The position numbers and the translations under genes were made by a program. Shown here one piece after another: positions 7,745 to 20,141 of a stretch of 64,000 bases of DNA. Source of the stretch: Clostridia bacterium (GTDB taxonomy: Bacteria > Bacillota > Clostridia > Oscillospirales > Acutalibacteraceae). The number at the start of each line of letters is the position of its first letter. Within the stretch, counting starts at the first letter, position 1. The notes under the pieces were generated by a model. The model was given only the letters and a program-made list of their open reading frames with translations, did not search any database and was not told where the DNA came from. The DNA lies in NCBI GenBank assembly GCA_017416765.1, contig JAFQBE010000033.1, positions 25,318 to 89,317 of the forward strand, read 5' to 3'.

Positions 7745-8101
7745 ATGAGGATTACGCAGTTGGAAAGCGAAAAAGCTGTTCTGAAGGAGTTTGGGAACAG
7801 AATAAAACAGTACAGAATATCGTTGAATATCACACAGCAGCAGCTTGCTGAGCGGTGCGGTGTTTCGGTCAGCACGCTTGTGCGCATAGAAAACGGCGAT
7901 GACCCTAAATGGTCAACAATAATTAAAATTTTATCTGAATTTAACTTGTTGGAAAATCTGGAAATATTAATACCTGAGCCACAGCCCGATTACAAAGCAA
8001 TGTTTGAAGAAAAGACAGCAAGGAAACGTGCACGACCCGATAAAAATAAAACGGGTGACAACTGGGTCTGGGGAGAAGACAGAGAGGATGAAGAGAATTG
8101 A
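7745..8101 (+). CDS. HipB-like XRE-family antitoxin/repressor
   Basis: 118 aa. Residues ~16-70 form an XRE/HTH_3 fold (FGNRIKQYRISLNITQQQLA, CGVSVSTLVRIENG). The C-terminus is charged and disordered-looking (RKRARPDKN, then an acidic end), suited to wrapping a toxin partner. Its stop overlaps the start of the downstream HipA-like kinase by 4 nt (TTGA), so the two are translationally coupled. By family it should neutralise the kinase and bind the dyad at 7666-7730. Confidence 0.85.
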   Translation: MRITQLESEKAVLKEFGNRIKQYRISLNITQQQLAERCGVSVSTLVRIENGDDPKWSTIIKILSEFNLLENLEILIPEPQPDYKAMFEEKTARKRARPDKNKTGDNWVWGEDREDEEN

Positions 8102-9387
8102 AAAGTGTAAACACGGTCAGTGTGAAATTGTGGGGTACAGTTGTCGGTTATCTTCATCAGGAGGATAATGGTATAGTAGGCTTTCAGTATGATGTGGATT
8201 TTTTGAAAAGCAATATTCAGATTTCACCGATTAAAATGCCCTTGTCTGCGGCAACCTATTCGTTTCCCGCTTTGCCGGAACAGACTTTTTACGGCTTGCC
8301 GGGTATGGTTGCTGACTCGCTTCCCGACAAATTCGGCAATATAGTCATAAAAAACTATCTTGAAAGTCAGGGCCGTATTGAAGACAGTTTATCGGTTATT
8401 GAAAAGCTTTGTTACACAGGCAAACGTGGTATGGGTGCGCTGGAATATGAGCCTTCAAAAGACATTGTATCAGTGAACGAAAAGGTTGACCTTGATGCTC
8501 TGACAAAACTTGCTTCAGATATTTTGTCTGAAAAAGAGCAGTTCCATCTTCAGAAAGATGATAAGCTTATGGCACAGTTAATGGAATGCGGTTCTTCTGT
8601 CGGTGGTGCAAGGGCCAAAACTCTTATTGCGTGGAATCCCGAAACAAACGATATCCGTTCGGGTCAGATTGATGCCGGAAAGGGCTATGAATATTGGCTT
8701 CTTAAGTTCGATAATATTAAGAACAACAAAGATAAAGATTCGAGACCTGATGACGGTGAATATACAAAAGTTGAATATGCTTACTATTTAATGGCACTTG
8801 ATGCAGGAATTGAGATGAGCGAGTGCAGGCTTTACAAAGAAAACGGCAGTGCTCACTTTATGACAAAGCGTTTTGACAGAAAAGGAGCAAAAGGAGAAAA
8901 ACTTCATATGCAGTCCCTTTGTGCTCTTGCACATCTGGATTTCAATTCACCGAGAGTTTATTCGTATGAAGAAGCGTTTACCGTAATGAAACAGCTTAAG
9001 CTGCCATACAGGGATTTTGTTCAGTTATTCAGGCGAATGGTGTTCAATGAATACGCCAAAAACTACGACGACCACACAAAAAATATATCCTTCCTTATGG
9101 ATAAAAAAGGTGTCTGGTCGTTGTCGCCTGCATATGATGTCACGTTTTCATACAGAAAAGATAGTATATGGGTCAGCGCTCATCAGATGCTCATTAACGG
9201 CAAATCGGACAATATTACAACAGAAGATATGCTTAAAGTTGCCGAAAAAGCAGGTGTCAAAAAATCCGATGCAGTAAAAAGTATAGAGCAGGTAAGGACT
9301 TCCGTTTCAAAATGGGCGAATTTTGCCCGACAGACAGATATGTCAGAACACAATATAAAAATGATACAATCAAATCTGAATTTATAA
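8098..9387 (+). CDS. HipA-family serine/threonine kinase toxin
   Basis: 429 aa, TTG start inside the antitoxin stop (RBS aggatgaagag). The TTG is needed because the conserved N-terminus (VSVKLWGTVVGYL) begins at once. HipA-N features include GLPGMVADSLPDKFGN (67-81). The kinase part has a Gly-rich loop SSVGGARAK (166-174), the ATP-lysine region YEYWLLKF (197-204), the catalytic loop NYDDHTKN (322-329; Asp and Asn present) and the metal-binding PAYD (344-347). All catalytic residues look intact. E. coli HipA phosphorylates GltX and induces persistence; the target here is unknown. Confidence 0.88.
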   Translation: MKSVNTVSVKLWGTVVGYLHQEDNGIVGFQYDVDFLKSNIQISPIKMPLSAATYSFPALPEQTFYGLPGMVADSLPDKFGNIVIKNYLESQGRIEDSLSVIEKLCYTGKRGMGALEYEPSKDIVSVNEKVDLDALTKLASDILSEKEQFHLQKDDKLMAQLMECGSSVGGARAKTLIAWNPETNDIRSGQIDAGKGYEYWLLKFDNIKNNKDKDSRPDDGEYTKVEYAYYLMALDAGIEMSECRLYKENGSAHFMTKRFDRKGAKGEKLHMQSLCALAHLDFNSPRVYSYEEAFTVMKQLKLPYRDFVQLFRRMVFNEYAKNYDDHTKNISFLMDKKGVWSLSPAYDVTFSYRKDSIWVSAHQMLINGKSDNITTEDMLKVAEKAGVKKSDAVKSIEQVRTSVSKWANFARQTDMSEHNIKMIQSNLNL

Positions 9388-10350: not shown

Positions 10351-10690
10351 TTATACGGCAATCAGATAGTTGGACACACAGACATTCAGTCTCCAATGAC
10401 TGAGATGGAATATACTCGTAGCAAGAACGGCAAGTCGGTCATATTCGGTCGGCAGGCCGTTTTTTATTGCGTGCTTTTTGCTCTCTCCCCTAAGCTTGTA
10501 TGTACCGGTAAAATCAGATTTGTTTATGGGCTTTGGTTTCTTAGTTCTCTTATCCAGACAGCGCTCATTCCAATGCTTACAGATCAATTCTTCAAGTTTC
10601 TCCCGGTAGCCTTCTTCGTTGTTTATTCTGTCGAGATAATATTTGTAGGCTCGTTTCGCCTGTGCGGCACGGAGTGAATGATAAGCGTAT
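10351..10690 (-). pseudogene. Decayed second copy of the tyrosine integrase 3' end
   Basis: Reading minus, 10690 to 10351 encodes a clear homolog of the C-terminal ~110 residues of the integrase next door: AYKYYLDRINNEEGYREKL, then CKHWNERCLDKRTKKPKPI and LSHWRLNVCVSNYLIAV, against AYNYYLGRINNEPGYRKQL, KRWNEKCIDKKTKKPK and LSHWRLDVTVSNYMLAV. An in-frame stop lies just upstream (~10697) and the rest is missing. The intact copy ends 160 bp away on the same strand. Confidence 0.8.
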
Positions 10691-10850
10691 GCTTATCTTG
10701 CTTTTGACCGAGCATGATTTACTCCTTGATATTGTATTTTTCAAGGATTTATATCTGAACTCATAGTGAGTTATATTCGTGTTCATCCTGAGAATTTATA
10801 TCAAAACGGGCAGCGTCAAATCTTCCCCGTATCCTCAGTGGGTGTGGTAA

Positions 10851-11810
10851 TCATACCGCCAGCATGTAGTTTGAGACAGTTACGTCGAGTCTCCAATGAG
10901 ACAAGTGATAGATCGAAACTGCCATCAGCACCAGTCTGTCATAGACAATCGGCAGTCCTTTTTCAAGTGCAAGCTGTTTATTCTTTCCGCGCACAAAATA
11001 ATTGCCACGGATTTCGTTCTTATCAAGGTGCTTCGGTTTCTTTGTTTTCTTATCAATGCACTTTTCGTTCCAACGCTTTATAATCTCATCCTCAAGCTGC
11101 TTTCTGTATCCGGGCTCATTGTTGATTCTGCCAAGATAGTAGTTGTATGCTCTTACCGCCTGTTCGGCTCTCATATGGTGATAATCAATGCTGTTGTTCA
11201 TTTCCTGTGCAGAAAACACTTTATTTTCCGTACCGTCAAAAAACTGCTTTACTGTTCCGATATCTTCCGGCAAGATGCGCTGATAGGTTTCTTTGCCGCC
11301 CTTACCTCTGCGAACAACGATGCACAAATATCCGCATTCATCCACCTTCAGGTCACTGCCGCGAAGGTTCTTAAGTTCGTTTCTGCGGATTCCGATACAT
11401 CTCTGCAGCTCAACCGTTCTTGAATACTTGCTGTTGTTTTCATCACCGTCCGAACGGTAATGTTTGCGTTCTTTTCTGGAACGGGTGTTTTCTGCCGCAT
11501 ACCTTTTAGGCAGATTCATCACGTTAAGCGGAATCCCGTGATAGAGTCCGACGGGAGCCATATATGTATGAATTGTGCTTGCGGTATGGTCTTTTTCTTT
11601 CAGGTACTCAATGTAATCCTCAATATGCTCGGCGCATTCTTCCTTGGTTTTGCAGTCGTACTGTTCACGGCAGAACTTAACAAATTTGTCATAGTTCTTT
11701 ATGTATGCCGCTCTTGTCACATTGTTTTCATACTGCTTAAAATGCTTTGCGGCATCATTTCTGAGCTTGCCTGAAGTGCTCTGCTTGTAATGTTTCTTTT
11801 TCTTACTCAA
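10851..11810 (-). CDS. Tyrosine recombinase/site-specific integrase, 319 aa
   Basis: TTG start at 11810 with a strong RBS (aaaggag). The N-terminal half (1-115) is a SAM-like core-binding domain. The catalytic half has the Arg-I motif GIRRNELKNLRG (~139-150), a probable Lys (RRGKGGKETYQR) and a C-terminal box HLSHWRLDVTVSNYMLAV ending four residues after the presumed nucleophilic Tyr. The usual HxxR motif is not evident: its Arg may be in VYDRL, without the His, and the spacing to the last box is about 10 residues shorter than in XerD. It may therefore belong to a divergent integrase family. The 3' end is duplicated as a pseudogene downstream. Confidence 0.82.
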   Translation of the reverse strand: MSKKKKHYKQSTSGKLRNDAAKHFKQYENNVTRAAYIKNYDKFVKFCREQYDCKTKEECAEHIEDYIEYLKEKDHTASTIHTYMAPVGLYHGIPLNVMNLPKRYAAENTRSRKERKHYRSDGDENNSKYSRTVELQRCIGIRRNELKNLRGSDLKVDECGYLCIVVRRGKGGKETYQRILPEDIGTVKQFFDGTENKVFSAQEMNNSIDYHHMRAEQAVRAYNYYLGRINNEPGYRKQLEDEIIKRWNEKCIDKKTKKPKHLDKNEIRGNYFVRGKNKQLALEKGLPIVYDRLVLMAVSIYHLSHWRLDVTVSNYMLAV

Positions 11811-12737
11811 AGCTTTTTTCTCCTTTCTTTTGTATTGGGCTTCTCTGAAAAATCATCGCACAAAATCTTGCGTGCCCTTTTTCTGCCATATTGTCCCAAA
11901 ATACTCGTTAATACACAAAGTATTGCCTGCGTTTTTGAACCAATCTGACAAAAAAATAACTACGCAATCTTTGCACCCTGAGTTTTCAGAAAAACCCTAT
12001 TCGGAAAGTGTTCTGCATAGCAACGTCACTTTACCAAAACGCCCACTAAAAAAATTAGTGTTAAACTGTTCGGGGGCTTCATCCGGAAGCGATAACTTGT
12101 TGAGAACAAGCTATCCGTTAAGGTCGATGCAAACCATAACGCCAAAACGATTTTCCGTATACGAAAACCGTTCATTCGCCCTACTAACTGGTTATTCCGG
12201 TTAATAACCTGAATAACCGTTAGTAAGACCGGCTCTTTTCTTTCGAAAAGTTGCCGTGTCTGTGATGAGAACAGAGCAACAAAGCTTTTGAAAATCTTTG
12301 CTTTTACTGTTTCAACACTCTCAATCCGTACATTTTAAAACCGCACGGATTGTGCAGGATACGCGGTGGTTTTCTCATCTCATTTCGATCCGCACACCCA
12401 CACTATGGGGGTGAATATCTCAGGGGATAATGCCGCTACCGAGATTCGCCGAACTTAAAGATCAAACTACCGATGTGCCCTTGCACTGATTTTCCTCCTC
12501 AATTTAAATTCTCAAACCGCCTTCGCAATTTCTATCCCTGACAGTTGAACTAAAACGGGATTTTTGAGAATCACTTGCGCTGTGATTCTTACTCCAAACG
12601 TCTTTCATTAATCGCTTAAAGTATGTAAGAATGACTGACATTGCAAATCGCAACTTTAACTTTCCTGCCAAAAACAGGCTGATTTCAGGCATAAATTAAC
12701 CCCTGAAACGGGTGCGATTTCGTTTCAGGAGTATAAA
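11811..12737. other. 0.93-kb non-coding stretch rich in inverted repeats
   Basis: No convincing gene. The DNA holds several dyads: aacttgtt-gag-aacaagct (~12093-12111), a part palindrome centred on cgtatacg (~12157), the large palindrome at 12182-12223, and cctgaaacg/cgtttcagg (~12704-12729). It lies between the integrase promoter and the end of the export operon, so it may be the non-coding end of an integrated element with recombinase sites. A 62-codon minus-strand frame (12504-12692) has no recognisable product. Confidence 0.5.
12182..12223. repeat. ~42-bp imperfect palindrome, candidate recombination site
   Basis: The left arm actaactggttattccggtta and the complement of the right arm (actaacggttattcaggtta) match except for one bulged base and one mismatch, meeting at a TTAATAA-type centre. 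The size and symmetry fit a tyrosine-recombinase core site or a strong hairpin; the integrase gene is 370 bp away. Confidence 0.5.
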
Positions 12738-12777
12738 AGAACCACCCGACCTAAGTTTTCGCTCGGGTCGGGCGGTG
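12730..12777 (-). terminator. Terminator of the export operon
   Basis: Arms 12741-12751 and 12766-12776 pair along 11 bp. The one mismatch on the plus strand (A/C) becomes a G-U pair in minus-strand RNA, and the minus-strand hairpin is followed by tcttttata. This marks the end of the transcript carrying the transporter and the 40-aa peptide. Confidence 0.75.
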
Positions 12778-12877
12778 TGTGTTCTGCTATAAGGTTATAT
12801 GATACCGGGTAAGTTTTCGGTATTGTCATTACAGGAACTTTTCCGTTAAATCAAAATCACCCTTATAGGCAATCGAT

Positions 12878-13000
12878 TCAGCCTGTAACCAGTGAAATAA
12901 TATACTCAACTGCTTCTGTGATACCGCTGATGATTTCGGCAAAATCGAGACCGCCAAGCATTTCTGTGATGTAACTGATTACGGTTTCTAAAATTTCCAT
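12878..13000 (-). CDS. 40-aa acidic amphipathic peptide, last gene of the export operon
   Basis: The ORF is short but well supported: ggaaaggag sits 8 nt before ATG 13000, it starts 25 bp after the ABC ATPase stop on the same strand, and a terminator follows ~100 bp downstream. It begins MEILETVISYITEMLGG and ends IISLVTG. It has six acidic residues and no Lys, Arg or Cys. Hydrophobic residues recur every 3-4 positions, giving two amphipathic helices split at Gly16-Gly17. The layout recalls beta-type phenol-soluble modulins or double-glycine leader peptides, but no C39 peptidase is encoded nearby. It may be the exported substrate, a secreted amphiphile, or a small membrane subunit. I know of no named family. 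Confidence 0.75.
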   Translation of the reverse strand: MEILETVISYITEMLGGLDFAEIISGITEAVEYIISLVTG

Positions 13001-13025
13001 TTCTTTTTCTCCTTTCCTACTGATT

Positions 13026-13715
13026 TTATTGTTCGGTTATTTCACCGTCAACAATTCTGATAATCCTGCCTGCGTGTGAGGCAACTTTCAGGTCATGGGT
13101 AATCATAACGATTGTATGACCCATATCGTTGAGAGTTCTGAAAAGCTTGAGAACCTCTTCGCCCGTTTTGGTATCGAGCGCGCCTGTAGGCTCATCGGCA
13201 AGCAACAGCTTCGGGTCGCCGATGAGTGCTCTTGCAATTGCCGCCCTTTGCTGCTGACCGCCTGAAAGCTCGTTGGGCTTATGATAAATTCTGTCGCTCA
13301 TTTCGAGCATTGCCAGCTTTTCTTTTGCCTTTGCTTCGGCTTCCTTGTAGCTCTCACCTCTTGCGAGCAAGGGCATCATAACGTTCTGCAAAACGGTATA
13401 AGTGCTGACAAGGTGATATTTCTGAAAAATAAAGCCTATGAGTCGGTTTCTAATTATGGTCTGCTGTCTGTCATTGAGTTTTGCAACAGGAATTGACATA
13501 AGCTTATATTCGCCCGAATCGTAGGTATCCATACAGCCGATTATATTCATCAGCGTACTTTTACCGCTGCCTGAGGGGCCGAGAATACCGACGTATTCTC
13601 CTTGTTTAACCGTCAGCGAAACGTTCCTGAGAGCGTGAACAACGTTGTCGCCCATTACAAACTGCTTGCTGACGTCTTTTATTTCAATTACGGGGCAGGT
13701 TGAAAAATCTGCCAT
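13026..13715 (-). CDS. ABC transporter ATPase, MacB/YknY/LolD type
   Basis: 229 aa with all motifs: Walker A GPSGSGKST (46-54), Q-loop Gln98 (FQKYHL), signature LSGGQQQR (150-157), Walker B LLLADEPTGALD (170-181) and His207 (ITHD). By family it drives the FtsX/MacB-fold permease two genes upstream, converting ATP hydrolysis into movement of extracytoplasmic domains. It starts 16 nt after the lipoprotein stop (RBS agaaggtg) and is followed after 25 nt by the 40-aa peptide gene. MFP, permease and ATPase together match the YknX-YknZ-YknY set of Bacillus, which protects against the SdpC toxin. Confidence 0.93.
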   Translation of the reverse strand: MADFSTCPVIEIKDVSKQFVMGDNVVHALRNVSLTVKQGEYVGILGPSGSGKSTLMNIIGCMDTYDSGEYKLMSIPVAKLNDRQQTIIRNRLIGFIFQKYHLVSTYTVLQNVMMPLLARGESYKEAEAKAKEKLAMLEMSDRIYHKPNELSGGQQQRAAIARALIGDPKLLLADEPTGALDTKTGEEVLKLFRTLNDMGHTIVMITHDLKVASHAGRIIRIVDGEITEQ

Positions 13716-13731
13716 TTATATACACCTTCTT

Positions 13732-14367
13732 TTACTGACTGATTATCATTACGGAAGATACGGCATTGTTATCGTCAAGGCTGAGCATTATAACCATCCC
13801 CTTTGAAAGCGAGGTATAATCGCCGCTGCCTACCTTTACGCCGACGGGAATAGTATATTTTGCTGTTTCGCCCGTATATTCAAGCTCTATATCCTCCATA
13901 TTCATACCGGGCATTCTACCGCCTCCCTGCGGTCTTTCTCCATTTGCAAAGTCGGGCATAGAGAAATCACCGTCCGGCATTGAAAAATCCCCCTCGGGCA
14001 TTTTGCCTTCAAAGCCTTCCGGAGGGGTCATTCCTTCGGGCATTTCCATACCCTCGGGGAATTCCATACCTTCAGCCATTGTCATTCCTTCGGGTCTGCT
14101 GAAACCCTCAAAATCACCGTTTGGCATTTCGGGACGTGACATTTCTTCGGGCATTTCCGCTAACTCAAGAGTTATCTGGTTTCCGGCAACGCTTTTAATT
14201 TTGCCGATAACTCTTACCGAGCTTGTATCGCCTTTGCTCTCCTGACCGGAGACCTGCTGCAGTGAGGTTTCCTCCTGACCGCCGGAAATGCTCTGTGAAT
14301 CAGAGCAGCCTGCAAAAGCAATAGAGAGAACGAGAAGTAATACCGCAATTAATGAGAATGAACGCAT
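13732..14367 (-). CDS. Met/Pro/Glu-rich lipoprotein of the export operon
   Basis: 211 aa. The signal peptide ends in lipobox FAGC (Cys20), so the protein is anchored outside the membrane. Residues ~50-70 and ~160-211 look like beta strands of an OB-like fold (SVRVIGKIKSVAGNQITLEL; AKYTIPVGVKVGSGDYTSL). Between them (~72-152) is a low-complexity region of repeated MPEGM/PEGM/MPDGDF units with many Met residues. Such Met clusters can bind Cu(I)/Ag(I) or form flexible contacts; neither is shown here. The permease and the membrane-fusion protein carry related Met-Pro-rich tracts. It is encoded between permease and ATPase, so it is probably an accessory subunit. Confidence 0.8.
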   Translation of the reverse strand: MRSFSLIAVLLLVLSIAFAGCSDSQSISGGQEETSLQQVSGQESKGDTSSVRVIGKIKSVAGNQITLELAEMPEEMSRPEMPNGDFEGFSRPEGMTMAEGMEFPEGMEMPEGMTPPEGFEGKMPEGDFSMPDGDFSMPDFANGERPQGGGRMPGMNMEDIELEYTGETAKYTIPVGVKVGSGDYTSLSKGMVIMLSLDDNNAVSSVMIISQ

Positions 14368-14393
14368 AACAATTTACCACCTTTAATTATTTT

Positions 14394-15767
14394 TTAGTCG
14401 AGATTCAACGCTTCTATCGGAACGAGCCTTGATGCTTTCCACGCAGGATAAATGCCGAAAAGCGTGCCCGTTATAACCGCAAACACTATTGCCAGCACGT
14501 AGCCCCACCAGCTCGGCTCCATTCGTGTGCCCGTAAGCTCCATTAACGGAACAAGCGCAAAACTTAGGCCTATGCCCACAACTCCGCCGATAACGCTTAC
14601 GATGTTCGCCTCAAGGAGAAATTCCAGGAGAATAGTACGCTTCTGACATCCTATAGCTTTCAGAATACCGATTTCCGAAGTGCGTTCTTTTACGGAGACA
14701 AAAAGAACGTTCATAATACCAATGCCGCCAACCACAAATACGATTGACGCTACGGCAAACAGCAGAGTTGAAAACGTATCGGCGGAGCTGGTGGCAGCCT
14801 CCATTGCGCTGCCTGAATCGGTTATATCAAAGCTTGTGTTGGGGTGATTTTCCGTGAGAACGGTTTCAATATCCGCCATTACGGTTTCGACCGTGTTGAC
14901 ATCGGATGCAATAGCCGTTATCTGTGTAGTTCCCGACGTACGGAAAACGTATTTTTCGGCAGTGTTATATGGGATATATACCGCCGTGTCGGGGCTGATA
15001 CCAGAGGACACGGAGCCCATTTCCTCAAGCACACCGACTATTTCGTAATTCTTACCGTTGATTTCAATATAATCGCCGTAAGCATAAGCACCGTAAGTAA
15101 ACAGTTCTTCTGCAACGGAGTAGCCGAGTACCGCAACATATTCCTTTGTTTCATTATCGCCGGCTTCGATAAACCTGCCGTAAAGCGGGTTCAGATTTGA
15201 AACGGCATCGTAATTATCCGTTACGCCGACAACGGTTTTGGTCGTTTCCTCTTCGAGCTCACCGCCGAAAACGGTTGTTTCACCGCTGATAATCAGCGAA
15301 ACTTCTTCCAGACCGCTTACAAGCGACTTGATATCTTCAACATCCTGCATTTCGAGCGTTGATTCGTTCAGGGGTGATGACGACATTCCTCCGCCGCCTC
15401 CACCGCCGAAAGACGGCATTGAACCTCCTCTGCCGCCTGAACCGAATGACGGCATACCGCCGCCTCCGCCGCCTCCGAAGGAAGGCATTGAGCCGAAATC
15501 GGGCATATTGCCGCCGCCCATCGGGAAGCCTCCGCCAGAAAGCATTGCGTCAAGGTCTATACCGTCACCGACGGTTATATCTATTGCGCCTGCGTTAAGA
15601 TTTTTGAACTGGTCGGCAACGTCTGCCTTACCGCCCTGACCGACGGCAATAACAAGCACTATAGTTGCCGAGCCGACTATAATGCCGAGCGTTGTCAGCA
15701 TCATTTTCGCCTTGTTTTCAATGATGTTTATCCAGACAAGGCGTAGAACCTCTCTGAGTCTCATCAT
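14394..15767 (-). CDS. ABC permease, MacB/FtsX family (YknZ-like)
   Basis: 457 aa. One N-terminal TM (~22-42), a large MacB-PCD-type extracytoplasmic domain, and three C-terminal TMs (~335-360, ~385-410, ~425-447) with the FtsX core (VKERTSEIGILKAIGCQKR) and the end GIYPAWKASRLVPIEAL. Unusual is a Gly/Met/Ser/Pro tract at ~78-132 (MPSFGGGGGGG-type units) inside the external domain. The start codon overlaps the membrane-fusion stop by 4 nt (ATGA), a sign of coupling. By family it is a mechanotransmission permease rather than a classic channel. The substrate is unknown; the operon's own 40-aa peptide is a candidate. Confidence 0.92.
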   Translation of the reverse strand: MMRLREVLRLVWINIIENKAKMMLTTLGIIVGSATIVLVIAVGQGGKADVADQFKNLNAGAIDITVGDGIDLDAMLSGGGFPMGGGNMPDFGSMPSFGGGGGGGMPSFGSGGRGGSMPSFGGGGGGGMSSSPLNESTLEMQDVEDIKSLVSGLEEVSLIISGETTVFGGELEEETTKTVVGVTDNYDAVSNLNPLYGRFIEAGDNETKEYVAVLGYSVAEELFTYGAYAYGDYIEINGKNYEIVGVLEEMGSVSSGISPDTAVYIPYNTAEKYVFRTSGTTQITAIASDVNTVETVMADIETVLTENHPNTSFDITDSGSAMEAATSSADTFSTLLFAVASIVFVVGGIGIMNVLFVSVKERTSEIGILKAIGCQKRTILLEFLLEANIVSVIGGVVGIGLSFALVPLMELTGTRMEPSWWGYVLAIVFAVITGTLFGIYPAWKASRLVPIEALNLD

Positions 15768-17851
15768 CTCATCATATCTCCCGGGTTGAAGTTGCCCATA
15801 TCAGGCATATTGCTCATATCGAAATCACCCCTATCGGGCATTTCCATGCTTCCGTTGCCTTCTGCACCCGAAGAGCCGAGTGCGCTCTGAACAAGTATCG
15901 TATCGCCTTCGTTAAGGCCCGAAAGGATTTCGACATACTGTCCGTCCGTGAAGCCGATTGAAATCTCGGTTTCAACGCCGTTACCGTCCTCGCCCTTGAC
16001 AAGCACGGTTGAAACGCCATCCTTTGTGGTTACAGCCTGCTTGCTTACGTAAAGAGCATCCATAGCAGAGCCCTGAACGAGAGTAACGTCGGCACTCATA
16101 CCGTCCAGAAGCTCCAGACCGGCATCATTTGTAAACTTAACGTTGACCGTATACGAAACGCTTGCGGCACCGATTGTTGCACCCTCAACGGAAATGCTGT
16201 CAACAACCGCCTCAAAGCTTTCGTCAGGGAAGGCTGCAAGCGAAACGACAGCTTCCTGGTCAAGGTAAATATCGAGAATATCGTCTTCCGAAATTGAAAC
16301 GCTCACGTTTACCTCGCTCATATCGGTTATGGTCATAAGCGTTGCGGCACTTGACGAGCCGAAGCCCATACTGTCGCCCGAATTGCCTGCAGAAATTTCA
16401 TCACCGACCTCAACGTTCAGCGAAGAAACAATACCATTGCAGGGAGCAGTAATAATGCCGTCATTGCCGATTGTTTCCTTAATTTCCGCAAGCTGTTCAA
16501 CAAGAGTATCGTACTGCTCCTGTGCAGTTTTTACCTTCTGATTGAGCTCGGTCTTTTTAAGGTTGTATTCCTTCTGTGCCGTAGAAGCGGTAGAATCGGT
16601 TGATTCCTTTTTCTGCTCGGCACTGAGCAATGTGGATTTATAGTTTGACTGCTGCTTTTCAAGATTCAGCTTTGCTTTTTCGAGGGAAGTGAGAGCGTCC
16701 TCAAGAGAGTCGGTCATAGCTTCCTTATCCTCGATATTGCCATACTTTTCGTTGAACTCCTGCTTGAAATCGTTGTACTTTTCCTTTGCTTCGGTAAGAT
16801 CCTCCTCAGCATCGGAAAGATTGTCGGAAATTTCGTCCGCATCGTAATTATCAAGCTTCTTTTCCAATGTTTCCTGCTCATCAAACAAATCCTCAAGCTC
16901 ATCCATTGAAGCTTCGAGCGTTTCGTATTTTTCCTGAGCCTTGAGCAGGTCGCTGTATTTTGTTATTAAATTCTCATCATTGTTATATTCTTCGGAAAGC
17001 TTGTCATAGTTTTCCTTGAGCTCTGCAAGCATAGCCTCCGCCTGCTCCATGTTTGAAGCATCAACTATACCTCTTATTTCGCTCTGAACCTGATTCAGTT
17101 CGGAGTTAATGCTGTTGTATTCGTTTTTCTTTTCCGAATAGTAATCCACGGAGCTTTGCAAGGAATCAACCCTGTTTTCATAGTAGGTAAGCATAGTTTT
17201 ATCAACGGTGAAACTTTTGCTTTTTTCAACAAGGTCGTCGTACTTTTCCTGTGCTTCTTCAAGGGATTTCTGTGCCGACTCAAGGTCAAGCTCTGCCTGT
17301 GCAACACTTACGGAATAGTCCGAACCGGAAAGCTCGCCGTTGAGAAGGTTAGTTTCAAGAGTCTGTGCGGCTTTGAGCAGCTCGCTGTCCCTTGAAATTT
17401 TTGCGCTCTCTAAATCTGCATAGGCAGACTGAATTTCTTCTTCATATTCGTCTAAAGCTTCGGAAATATCGTCCATGCTGAGCTTTGCAAGCGCATCGCC
17501 CTGCTTAACCTGAGAGCCCGATTTTACGTAAAGCTCGAGCACCTCTGCGCCGACGGAAAACGTAACGTTTTCTTTGTTGAGCGTAATAACCGAGCTTTCG
17601 GTAAGACCTACGATAATATCGCCCCTTGTTACCTTATACTCACGGTAAACGGGTGTGCTGGCGGAAGTCTGCTTTGAACGTACGCCCAGAACAATACCCA
17701 TGGCAATAGCCGCAACTACAACGAGCGCAACAACGGCAATAATTATCTTCTTTGTCTTACTGAGTTTTCCTTTCTTCTTTTTGCCGCCGATTTCACCGAG
17801 TAATGCGGTAAGCTCATCGGAAGCGTTGTTGGTCTGAGCCTTTTTGCTCAT
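15764..17851 (-). CDS. Membrane-fusion (HlyD/YknX-like) protein with a long coiled coil
   Basis: 695 aa from ATG 17851, chosen because GGAG is then 8 nt away (GTG 17860 and ATG 17857 lie on top of it). A Lys-rich cytoplasmic start precedes one TM (~35-58). Next come a split biotinyl-lipoyl-like barrel (before ~130 and ~465-560), a very long helical hairpin rich in Glu/Lys/Gln (~130-455), a beta-barrel domain and a YknX-like end (TILVQSALG). The last ~35 residues are Met/Asp/Gly-rich (MPDRGDFDMSNMPDMGNF). Gram-positive MFPs of this type gate or extend MacB-like permeases. It is the first gene of the operon, 75 bp after the kinase terminator. Confidence 0.88.
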   Translation of the reverse strand: MSKKAQTNNASDELTALLGEIGGKKKKGKLSKTKKIIIAVVALVVVAAIAMGIVLGVRSKQTSASTPVYREYKVTRGDIIVGLTESSVITLNKENVTFSVGAEVLELYVKSGSQVKQGDALAKLSMDDISEALDEYEEEIQSAYADLESAKISRDSELLKAAQTLETNLLNGELSGSDYSVSVAQAELDLESAQKSLEEAQEKYDDLVEKSKSFTVDKTMLTYYENRVDSLQSSVDYYSEKKNEYNSINSELNQVQSEIRGIVDASNMEQAEAMLAELKENYDKLSEEYNNDENLITKYSDLLKAQEKYETLEASMDELEDLFDEQETLEKKLDNYDADEISDNLSDAEEDLTEAKEKYNDFKQEFNEKYGNIEDKEAMTDSLEDALTSLEKAKLNLEKQQSNYKSTLLSAEQKKESTDSTASTAQKEYNLKKTELNQKVKTAQEQYDTLVEQLAEIKETIGNDGIITAPCNGIVSSLNVEVGDEISAGNSGDSMGFGSSSAATLMTITDMSEVNVSVSISEDDILDIYLDQEAVVSLAAFPDESFEAVVDSISVEGATIGAASVSYTVNVKFTNDAGLELLDGMSADVTLVQGSAMDALYVSKQAVTTKDGVSTVLVKGEDGNGVETEISIGFTDGQYVEILSGLNEGDTILVQSALGSSGAEGNGSMEMPDRGDFDMSNMPDMGNFNPGDMMR

Positions 17852-17883
17852 TTTCATCACTCCAATATCTTTGATGGTACTAA

Positions 17884-17929
17884 CAATAAAAAATGAAAGT
17901 GATGTTTCTGTGAGAAAAACACCACTTTC
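17884..17929 (-). terminator. Terminator/attenuator between the two-component genes and the transporter operon
   Basis: Arms 17895-17907 and 17917-17929 (13 bp, one G-U in minus RNA) are followed on the minus strand by attttttattg. The transporter start is only ~35 nt further on and I see no good promoter between, so partial read-through from the histidine kinase gene is likely. Confidence 0.75.
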
Positions 17930-17935
17930 AAAAAT

Positions 17936-19447
17936 TTATGCTAAGGGTATTACAAATGTAAACTTCACACCGTTATCCGTATTTTCTGCCGTACAGTTTC
18001 CACCGTGCTTTCCAACTACGGATTTGACTATTGAAAGCCCGAGACCTGCGTGAAGAGCTTCGGTTCTTACTCTTGCTTCATCCGTTCTGTAGAATCTGTC
18101 CCATATAAAGGGCAGCTTCTGCGGGTCGATAACAGCACCCTCATTAAATACGGTAAATACTGCACAGGAATCTTCTTCACAAAGCTTAATTTCTATCTTT
18201 CCGCCCGCTTTGGTATGTGTAGCGGCATTTGACAGATAATTCTTGATTGCCTGTTCGAGATATTTTTCATCGCCGTTGACGAAAAGATTTTCGGTAATAT
18301 CAATTTCACACTCGGCGTGTTGCAACACAATATCCATTTTGTTTACTGTATATCTGCAAAGCTCGGAAAAATTCAGTTTTTCTTTTTTAATGCTGTGCAG
18401 TTCATTTTCAATCGACGATATTTCAAGCATCGTCTTAACCATATCGTTAAGGCGCTCTGTTTCGTCTATAATTGTCTGACAGTAGTATTCCTTGTCTATA
18501 CCCTCAACGTCGTTTTTCAGGTTTTCGCCGTACATCTGCAGCAGACAAAGCGGCGTTTTCATTTCGTGAGAAACGTTTGCAATGAAATCACGCTGCGTTT
18601 TCTCGGTACGCTTACGCGCATCAATATCGGCAGAGAGCTTTTCGTTGGCGGTTTTCAGTTCTTCAATAGCAGTTGAAAGCCTGTAAGACATAGTATTTAT
18701 GCTTGAGGCAAGACTGCTCAGCTCCGGCGTATTGACGGTTTCGTCAGCCGTCTGCTCAAAATCCAGCTTTGAAATCTTCTGCGAAACAGCTTCAATATTT
18801 TTAATAGGCTTATTTATGCTTTTTGCTACAAAATAAGCGCACACAAGACCCGCCAGAAGTATAACGGCAGAGATATAGAAATTGACCTTTGTGAACATAG
18901 CAACACTGCTGTCAATGGATTCAACGGAAGAGGAAAGAAAAATATACCTTTCTTCGTTGCCGAACACAATTTTCCCCTGTAAAACAAGGTTGCTGTTTTC
19001 TGCTCCGATATGGCGCACTTCAGGATTTACCGAAAACTCAGAAAAGTCAATCCGGGGTACTTTTTTAATCGGATTATCGCCCACAGGACTACCACCGGGA
19101 GGAATATCGTTAGGTGAAGGCGGATTATTGCCGAACAGCAATGGCTGACCGAAAAACTCAAAACCGCCCATAGATACCCTTGTTGAATAAACAACTTCGG
19201 AATTATCGAAAACCGTTATTTTGATGTTGTGGGTATTCTCGCTTTTTTCAGTAAGGCTGCTGAGCTGCAAGGTGTTGTCCGTGTAGTTGCTTTGCAGGGT
19301 TTCAAAAAGCTCCAGCATCTGCTTTTCTCTCTCGTGAACGAAGAAGGTTTTTGAAAGGAAAACTCCGAAAAGCAGCTGTAACACAACCGCAACCGACAGC
19401 AGCGCCGCCGAAAAAATCATAATTTTAGCTCTGATTGATGTCTTCAT
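17936..19447 (-). CDS. Sensor histidine kinase
   Basis: 503 aa from ATG 19447 (MKTSIRAKI), which lies 16 nt after the regulator stop with ggtga upstream; the longer frame would run back into the regulator gene. Two TMs (~10-30 and ~190-210) enclose a ~155-residue external sensor domain containing a Pro/Gly/Asn-rich segment (~107-127). Then come HAMP (~212-265), HisKA with His294 (FIANVSHEMKTPL), the N box (NYLSNAAT, Asn407) and a G box (HAGLGLSIVKSVV). It should phosphorylate the OmpR-type regulator encoded just upstream. Its position before the export operon suggests it controls export in response to an external, perhaps peptide, signal. Confidence 0.93.
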   Translation of the reverse strand: MKTSIRAKIMIFSAALLSVAVVLQLLFGVFLSKTFFVHEREKQMLELFETLQSNYTDNTLQLSSLTEKSENTHNIKITVFDNSEVVYSTRVSMGGFEFFGQPLLFGNNPPSPNDIPPGGSPVGDNPIKKVPRIDFSEFSVNPEVRHIGAENSNLVLQGKIVFGNEERYIFLSSSVESIDSSVAMFTKVNFYISAVILLAGLVCAYFVAKSINKPIKNIEAVSQKISKLDFEQTADETVNTPELSSLASSINTMSYRLSTAIEELKTANEKLSADIDARKRTEKTQRDFIANVSHEMKTPLCLLQMYGENLKNDVEGIDKEYYCQTIIDETERLNDMVKTMLEISSIENELHSIKKEKLNFSELCRYTVNKMDIVLQHAECEIDITENLFVNGDEKYLEQAIKNYLSNAATHTKAGGKIEIKLCEEDSCAVFTVFNEGAVIDPQKLPFIWDRFYRTDEARVRTEALHAGLGLSIVKSVVGKHGGNCTAENTDNGVKFTFVIPLA

Positions 19448-19463
19448 ATTTTCACCGCACAGT

Positions 19464-20141
19464 CTATTCAAATTTATAGCCGACTTTGTAAACGGTTTTG
19501 ATTCTTTCACCTGACTCAAGCTTTGCACGAAGCTGCTTTATATGCGTATCAACCGTTCTCGTGTCCCCCTCGTAATCGTAGCCCCATACGTAATCAAGAA
19601 TACGATCGCGGGGAAGTGTAATTTTACTGTTCTGCATCAGATAACACAGCAAATCAAATTCCTTTTTTGTCAGGTCAATAAGCTTTCCGCAATCCGTAAC
19701 CGATCGGTTGGATTGGCTGAGAGTAATATCGCCCGATACAATATCGTTTGCGTGCACCTTGCCTGCACGCCTTAAAACGGCTTCCGTGCGGGCAAGCAAA
19801 AGCGTAGGCGAAATCGGCTTGGAAATATAGTCATCCGCACCGAAGGTAAGCCCTTTTATCTGGTCGTATTCCTCACTCTTTGCCGTGAGCATAATAATCG
19901 GCACAAGCTGACCGTTTTCCCGCAATTCTTTCAAAACGTCAAACCCGTTGAGCTTCGGCATCATAACGTCGAGAATTATAATGTCAACCGAATTGAAGTT
20001 TTCGTAATAGATATTGACAGCTTCTTCACCGTCATATGCCGATATAACTTCAAAACGGTTAGCCTTGAAATAATCCCCCAGTGCACGGACAATTTTTGCT
20101 TCATCATCAACAATAAGAATACAAGGTTTATCATTAAGCAT
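19464..20141 (-). CDS. OmpR-family response regulator
   Basis: 225 aa. The receiver domain has the acidic pair Asp12-Asp13, phospho-acceptor Asp58 (IIILDVMMPKLNG), the T/K switch residues (MLTAK; Lys108 in ISKPI) and a C-terminal winged helix (~128-224) with the usual recognition segment GDTRTVDTHIKQLR. RBS gggagaag. It forms an operon with the histidine kinase downstream and most likely acts on the transporter operon that follows, as in other linked TCS-ABC sets; that target is inferred. Confidence 0.94.
   Translation of the reverse strand: MLNDKPCILIVDDEAKIVRALGDYFKANRFEVISAYDGEEAVNIYYENFNSVDIIILDVMMPKLNGFDVLKELRENGQLVPIIMLTAKSEEYDQIKGLTFGADDYISKPISPTLLLARTEAVLRRAGKVHANDIVSGDITLSQSNRSVTDCGKLIDLTKKEFDLLCYLMQNSKITLPRDRILDYVWGYDYEGDTRTVDTHIKQLRAKLESGERIKTVYKVGYKFE

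Follow-up and report, generated by a model that had tools for sequence, protein, structure and literature searches.

Phenol-soluble modulins (PSMs; alpha, PF17063, and beta, PF05480) and the peptides LspU and LspD of Staphylococcus are leaderless, small, amphipathic peptides that occur in several copies and are easily missed. Passages of PMC12607899 describe LspD as PSM-like, place its start 27 nucleotides (nt) behind a lipase gene and report that LspU is exported by the PSM transporters; passages of PMC5354552 add that export of PSMs by Pmt also confers immunity on the producer. Here, we describe a predicted gene for a 40-amino-acid (aa) peptide with the same general traits, which stands last in a MacB/YknXYZ-type export operon within a 64,000-nt stretch of contig JAFQBE010000033.1 from a Clostridia bacterium (hereafter, the window; Table 1).

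The operon also resembles YknWXYZ of Bacillus, in which an adaptor, a separate ATPase and a MacB-type permease are likewise encoded together. In passages of PMC4887032, YknWXYZ is implicated in expelling SDP, a 42-residue sdpC product with a disulfide, from the cytosol; according to passages of the review PMC5985334, MacB moves no substrate across its own membrane and works outside it, so the two sources disagree on how such pumps work. The review also lists YknZ and AS-48H, with question marks, among the MacB family.

Unlike YknWXYZ, the window operon has as its fourth gene one for a 211-aa Met-rich putative lipoprotein without a Pfam family; a Yip1-family YknW was not found among the operon proteins, the rest of the genome not having been searched for it. 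Unlike SDP, the window peptide contains no Cys. It shares with leaderless and circular bacteriocins that have MacB-type pumps (AS-48EFGH) the layout of a small, probably helical peptide near such a transporter; these bacteriocins are typically cationic, whereas the window peptide has a net charge of -7. This charge also sets it apart from the PSMs, as do its core motif (D-[FWY]-x2-[ILV]), its clostridial lineage and its scores, which fall below the cut-off of each PSM model. The window peptide reached 17.3 bits with NF033427 (cut-off 33) and had no match in Pfam; other members of its family, introduced below, reached 17.7 with PSMalpha (cut-off 23), 13.8 with PSMbeta (cut-off 25) and 23.6 with NF033425 (cut-off 30). 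Among the peptides scanned, PSM models were the only NCBIfam matches and two of the Pfam matches, all of them sub-threshold.

The peptide gene and its coding constraint

The open reading frame (ORF) of the peptide consists of an ATG start, 40 codons and a stop; the ribosome-binding site (RBS), AAAGGAG, lies 8 nt 5' of the ATG, and 25 nt separate the ORF from the stop of the ATPase gene at 13026. Counting this one, the whole window has six intergenic ATG ORFs of 25-70 aa that are preceded by a Shine-Dalgarno (SD) sequence; by eye, two of them look like ribosomal protein genes. An SD-preceded small ORF is thus not rare in itself, and conservation is what counts.

Eleven genomes of the window's genus, including its own (G000), were searched. 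ATPase matches with E ≤1e-60 were obtained in eight of the 11, but the window's kind of ATPase was found only in G000 and G004, which share 88% identity; the remaining genus matches have 45-48%. In G004, a peptide gene with an RBS follows the same ATPase gene, and its product has 57% identity to the window peptide across 35 residues. Over these 35 codons, we estimated 13.8 synonymous and 20.2 non-synonymous changes (pS 0.66, pN 0.24, pN/pS 0.36). When the same number of changes was placed at random, the synonymous share was equally high in 4 of 2,000 placements, a simulation without transition bias and therefore somewhat generous.

A sequence-only reading of the window had pointed out this ORF with its RBS, 25 nt behind the ATPase gene, and had proposed a comparison with related genomes and a codon-level analysis as checks. 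The ORF and its position proved correct, and within the genus both checks came out in its favor, as the ORF is kept in both of the operon-bearing genomes among the 11 and shows a synonymous excess between them. The same reading described an amphipathic peptide with six acidic and no basic residues. There are in fact seven acidic residues (one Asp and six Glu); Lys, Arg and His are absent, as stated. The amphipathic character is upheld as well: helical moments are 0.52 for residues 2-15 and 0.52 for residues 20-38, and none of 5,000 residue shuffles equaled the observed moment in both helices.

Based on the codon comparison, the amphipathicity and the family profiles, we consider it very likely that the ORF is a real gene under selection that closes a MacB/YknXYZ-type operon. 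The alternative of a chance ORF within a 3' untranslated region would be in keeping with the loss of the stop and the last five residues in the G004 frame, with the number of SD-preceded small ORFs in the window, and with the absence of such an ORF from the closest operon of another genus (79%; G347/UBA1730). It is nevertheless very improbable in view of the codon constraint, the amphipathicity and the family profiles with their pattern-preserving controls (see below).

The window peptide had no match above the cut-off in Pfam, NCBIfam or PHROGs, and a plasmid search with the peptide found none. Among solved structures there was none for the peptide, and the family profile gave chance-level matches (best E, 0.15).

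Signals around the gene fit its place as the last of the operon. The intrinsic terminator on its 3' side has an outer stem of 11 pairs, an inner stem of three pairs and the tail TCTTTT; its fold reaches -24.3 kcal/mol (z, -4.65), and none of 200 shuffles was equally stable. It had been read as specific to the minus strand, and the fold agrees: a single G-U pair forms on the minus strand, at a place where the plus-strand fold is broken. Just 5' of the peptide gene, a promoter-like site with 10 of 12 matches could let the peptide be transcribed apart from the operon; this site is weak evidence because 19 sites of the kind turned up in the scan where 12.2 (standard deviation, 4.0) were expected. 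Behind the ORF, a 22-nt stretch matches the central part of the G004 peptide gene at 21 positions (BLASTN E, 8e-6); the best 23-mer has 21 matches, compared with ≤18 in 300 mononucleotide shuffles. This stretch is probably the leftover of a lost second tandem copy.

A family of acidic peptides in related genomes

Weak matches led from the window peptide to small genes in tandem, three ORFs of 43 residues each in G230 and two of 45 residues each at another place in the window's own genome, and profiles then widened the set. The resulting family comprises leaderless acidic genes of 35-63 residues, often in tandem, with the core D-[FWY]-x2-[ILV], in genomes of the window's bacterial family. This is probably Acutalibacteraceae, because a locus from the same family (L018 in G034) and one from Caproiciproducens faecalis (L039), which NCBI taxonomy places in Acutalibacteraceae, have equal ATPase identity and the same protein next in line.

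Free peptides preceded by an RBS were found in genus g133 (one each in G142, G294 and G384, three in G230), in genus g63 (two in G363, one in G185, two in G072, three in G260) and in G298, G013 and G754; the copies in G230, G260, G363 and G072 are in tandem. In the window's genus, a peptide pair (B1 and B2) is present in eight of the 11 genomes, and it was not found in the other three, which are 77-83% complete. With long frames counted in, the family-wide search gave E ≤0.001 in 21 of 368 genomes, from 7 of 135 genera, and the order-wide search gave matches in 5 of 394 genomes, among which G754 contributed one new free peptide. We left out of these counts of peptides G238 and G132 (long frames or no family layout), G191 (390-aa frame), G358 (380-aa frame with a Sec-type start), contig C24 of G010 (frame without family layout), G326 and G140 (a 3419-aa frame and a frame with a stop, respectively, with no family ORF in either), contig C13 of G005 (337-aa frame), G714 (603-aa frame), G043 (944-aa tape-measure-like frame) and the surface proteins at L148-L151 described below.

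Profiles built without the window peptide, one from six peptides of genus g133 and one from eight B2 peptides of the window's genus (g1), one of these from its own genome, ranked the window peptide first among 1409 window frames (E, 0.0038 and 0.0083, genome-scaled). Among reversed frames, its own reversal received an E of 2.9 with one profile, and the other profile reported none. Residue shuffles reached the two profile scores in 0 and 0 of 5,000 cases, and pattern-preserving shuffles in 1 and 0 of 5,000; the rarity of the latter indicates that the match is more than shared amphipathicity. On these profile results, we assign the window peptide to the family with high confidence. The family's own genes also show constraint: in 13 comparisons of B1 or B2 from the window's genome with other genus copies, only 0-3 of 2,000 placements reached the observed synonymous share.

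In the alignments, a single Asp is invariant; in most rows, Phe, Trp or Tyr comes next and then hydrophobic residues; the partner peptides B1 are without this Asp core. The unit repeats after 16-17 residues in several members (spacing by eye). We read the layout of the window peptide as a helix, a turn at Gly-Gly and a second helix that the conserved Asp would cap; Gly-Gly is variable across the family. Nine further family sequences reached no Pfam or NCBIfam cut-off. A literature search found no paper on phenol-soluble modulins as small amphipathic proteins of Clostridia or on PSM-like peptides in the gut; it was text-based, so the ORFs may be listed elsewhere.

In four proteins (G007, G154, G347 and G025), the core forms the C-terminal part behind Sec-type N-termini, recognized by eye, and Cys/His repeats; a C2H2 finger passes the Pfam cut-off in the G007 protein, and zf-met falls just below it in that of G154. 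Fusion behind Sec-type N-termini suggests a role outside the cell. Alternatively, the peptide might never leave the cell, serving as an intracellular membrane-surface protein; it might be a small pump regulator or pump subunit, or else a peptide that binds curvature or droplets. Its lack of a signal peptide and its amphipathic helices would suit peripheral membrane binding, the fusions in G202 and G330 may put the core on the inner side, and some members adjoin genes for unrelated enzymes such as phosphatases. We consider this explanation unlikely, as the four Sec-type fusions point outside and pump subunits are not usually encoded in tandem arrays.

The phosphatase neighbors belong to genus g63 (L178, L180, L181 and L179), where peptides lie ~100-120 nt behind a purple-acid-phosphatase-like gene in three of four genomes; in the fourth, the peptide lies ~100 nt before another metallophosphoesterase gene, and the upstream side ends at a contig end. 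The three purple-acid-phosphatase-like proteins are without a signal peptide by eye. In the window's genus, the B1/B2 pair precedes a gene for a ~240-aa membrane protein in seven genomes other than the window's own (L131, L140, L142-L145 and L152), with five spans by hydropathy in the one examined, and at five of these seven loci we also saw a small protein whose N-terminus is of the Sec type. Four of the ~240-aa proteins and three of the small Sec-type proteins were scanned, and none reached a Pfam or NCBIfam cut-off. In the window's own genome (G000:C34, locus L130), an ORF with a bacterial Ig-like domain follows the pair instead. Four further loci (L148-L151 in G010, G006, G002 and G005) encode surface-type proteins with an acidic Thr/Glu-rich stalk and a helix unit that is weakly peptide-like (E, 0.04-0.06); they have a TPDTG sortase-like tail by eye, and the one scanned has no Pfam anchor family.

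The operon and its tie to the peptide

The operon is of the YknXYZ/MacB type, as the sequence-only reading had held, with an adaptor, a separate ATPase and a MacB_PCD/FtsX permease. The best NCBIfam model for the ATPase is MacB (4.1e-72, below that model's cut-off); ABC_tran is its sole Pfam family above the cut-off, and it has no peptidase domain (C39). Homologues of the putative lipoprotein, which has no NCBIfam family either, are present in L033, L034, L035 and L037 among five operons compared. Met-, Gly- and Pro-rich stretches occur in the lipoprotein, in an insert of the permease and in the tail of the adaptor (13732-17860); such stretches resemble some metal-handling proteins.

That reading further inferred that the peptide is a substrate, signal or subunit of this transporter. 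Our survey did not bear out a functional tie of the peptide to this class of transporter. Within 600 bp behind the ATPase gene, a match to the peptide family was found at none of 92 other ATPase loci, the sole row up to E 1 being a frame at 0.81. These loci comprise 12 from the bacterial family and 80 from genome contigs, with some operons included twice, and 90 of them have at least 300 bp downstream. By manual count, the next gene encodes a secreted-looking protein of ~210 aa at 13 of the 92. At 19 free-peptide loci (the window and G004 excluded), TBLASTN at 1e-5 identified no window-like ATPase, and up to E 1 nothing was convincing (one 20-residue match at 0.99); these loci span 6-14 kb, with flanks of usually ~5 kb that are shorter at contig ends. 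The test missed one cut gene, at L137 (G013); part of a methionine-type ABC importer, namely the end of its ATPase with the NIL domain and its permease, stands at the start of this locus, and the peptide is 5.5 kb away. On these counts, the link between the peptide family and the transporter appears weak.

A dedicated partnership, in which the peptide would be a substrate that the pump takes out of the cell or the membrane, for export or for immunity, as proposed for AS-48 with AS-48EFGH and SDP with YknXYZ, is rather unlikely for the same reason that none of the 92 other ATPase loci carries the peptide and no fetched flank of the 19 other free-peptide loci carries a window-like ATPase. Furthermore, G004 keeps its peptide gene although its fetched 15 kb yielded no permease match, and the promoter-like site might free expression of the peptide from that of the operon. 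In favor of a partnership are the position of the gene, last in the operon, close behind the ATPase and followed by a terminator, its presence behind the ATPase in both genus genomes with the operon, and the peptide-linked pumps that the MacB family includes (YknZ and AS-48H, questioned in passages of PMC5985334, and YknWXYZ with SDP, in passages of PMC4887032).

The two-component system (TCS) is indeed on the same strand (17936-20141), but the idea of a sensed and exported peptide system is not supported. A terminator-like hairpin of 16 pairs with a T-run stands between the TCS and the operon; it may be either the end of the TCS unit or a 5' element of the export operon. The central Gly-Gly, noted earlier as a feature of the peptide, is present at residues 16-17, as in the middle of double-glycine leader peptides; it is Gly-Asp in the G004 ortholog and hence not conserved as a cleavage site, and we rejected a double-glycine leader. 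A role as a pheromone or bacteriocin that is cleaved behind Gly-Gly and detected by the nearby TCS is thus largely refuted and highly improbable, given the hairpin, the variable Gly-Gly and an ATPase without a peptidase domain.

Table 1. Features of the export operon region, with window coordinates
Feature	Coordinates	Strand	Description
Intrinsic terminator	12741..12776	minus	3' of peptide gene; hairpin fold
Probable tandem-copy remnant	12840..12861	minus	22 nt, 21/22 identical to middle of G004 peptide gene
Peptide gene	12878..13000	minus	Predicted 40-aa leaderless acidic amphipathic peptide; ORF and RBS, G004 ortholog, family profiles
Gap	13001..13025	minus	25 nt with RBS AAAGGAG; no terminator listed; start overlapped by promoter-like site 13051-13023 (minus)
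MacB/LolD-type ABC ATPase, 229 aa	13026..13715	minus	Pfam ABC_tran 3.2e-33
Putative lipoprotein, 211 aa	13732..14367	minus	Met/Pro/Glu/Gly-rich repeats; lipobox AFAGC by eye
MacB/YknZ-type permease, 457 aa	14394..15767	minus	Pfam MacB_PCD 9.4e-35, FtsX 2.4e-19
Membrane fusion (adaptor) protein, 698 aa	15764..17860	minus	HlyD_D23 2.7e-12; RND_mfp above cut-off
Terminator-like hairpin	17894..17930	minus	Between TCS and export operon, just before adaptor gene
Histidine kinase	17936..19528	minus	Pfam
Response regulator	19464..20141	minus	Pfam

Elsewhere in the window, a helix-turn-helix protein gene overlaps that of a HipA-like protein (7745-9387; HipA_C 1.3e-51, Couple_hipA 2.6e-18), forming a HipBA-type pair. 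Two neighboring minus-strand ORFs (10351-11810) have C-termini that are alike by eye; the longer weakly matches a phage-integrase SAM domain, and the shorter matches no Pfam family. This pair is possibly the remains of a mobile element.

How the peptide may act

The reading that we favor, at about even chances, is a modulin-like, membrane-active peptide behind a MacB/YknXYZ-type pump that may extract it. It draws on the coding constraint, the profile-based family membership, the tandem organization, the gene position and the fusions of the core to Sec-type proteins, the last recognized by eye. The peptide would be made without a signal peptide as a leaderless, strongly acidic, PSM-like molecule with two amphipathic helices; it would leave the cell by some route, and its hydrophobic face would bind membranes or other proteins at the surface. 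There, often jointly with its tandem sister peptides, it might serve as a surfactant, as part of a matrix or as an antagonistic peptide. The copy that sits behind the MacB/YknXYZ-type operon in this lineage could be co-transcribed with the pump, which could pull the peptide out of the membrane for self-protection or release. If the pump does act on the peptide, membrane extraction or self-protection seems more likely than export from the cytoplasm. That the peptide is translated, forms helices, is exported and acts on membranes, and that the pump plays any part, is what we infer from these observations.

Several results weigh against this reading. The PSM matches, being sub-threshold, could reflect shared physics, and in Pfam they stand beside unrelated sub-threshold families. 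In pairwise comparison, the window peptide has weak similarity to non-orthologous members (E per genome, 0.06 and 0.18); family membership rests on profiles and shuffles. For six closer B1/B2 pairs, 6, 11, 45, 104, 127 and 536 of 2,000 placements reached the synonymous share; these pairs have few changes and lend weaker support. In the G202 and G330 proteins, the core precedes a likely membrane span and is thus maybe inside the cell. Finally, the G004 frame has no stop, a 45-residue read-through replacing the last five residues, and the G004 operon is decayed or badly assembled, with regulator and kinase split across frames and the adaptor fused to the lipoprotein.

More tentatively, the family as a whole might form an anionic, multi-copy system of Asp-capped helical hairpins, a clostridial counterpart of the modulins that occurs both as free tandem peptides and as tails of secreted zinc-finger proteins. 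Such a system would build or modulate the cell surface or matrix, or antagonize neighbors, and in one lineage a copy would have become linked with a MacB-type pump as a means of self-protection.

The peptide family lies outside the Pfam and NCBIfam models scanned, and it offers several handles: a core motif, tandem genes, Sec-type fusions and one natural case of an operon shared with a MacB-type pump, for whose Gram-positive relatives passages of PMC5985334 give uncertain substrates. Modulins have shaped the understanding of staphylococcal surfaces; if clostridia have a family of their own, it would represent an overlooked class of surface-active molecules.

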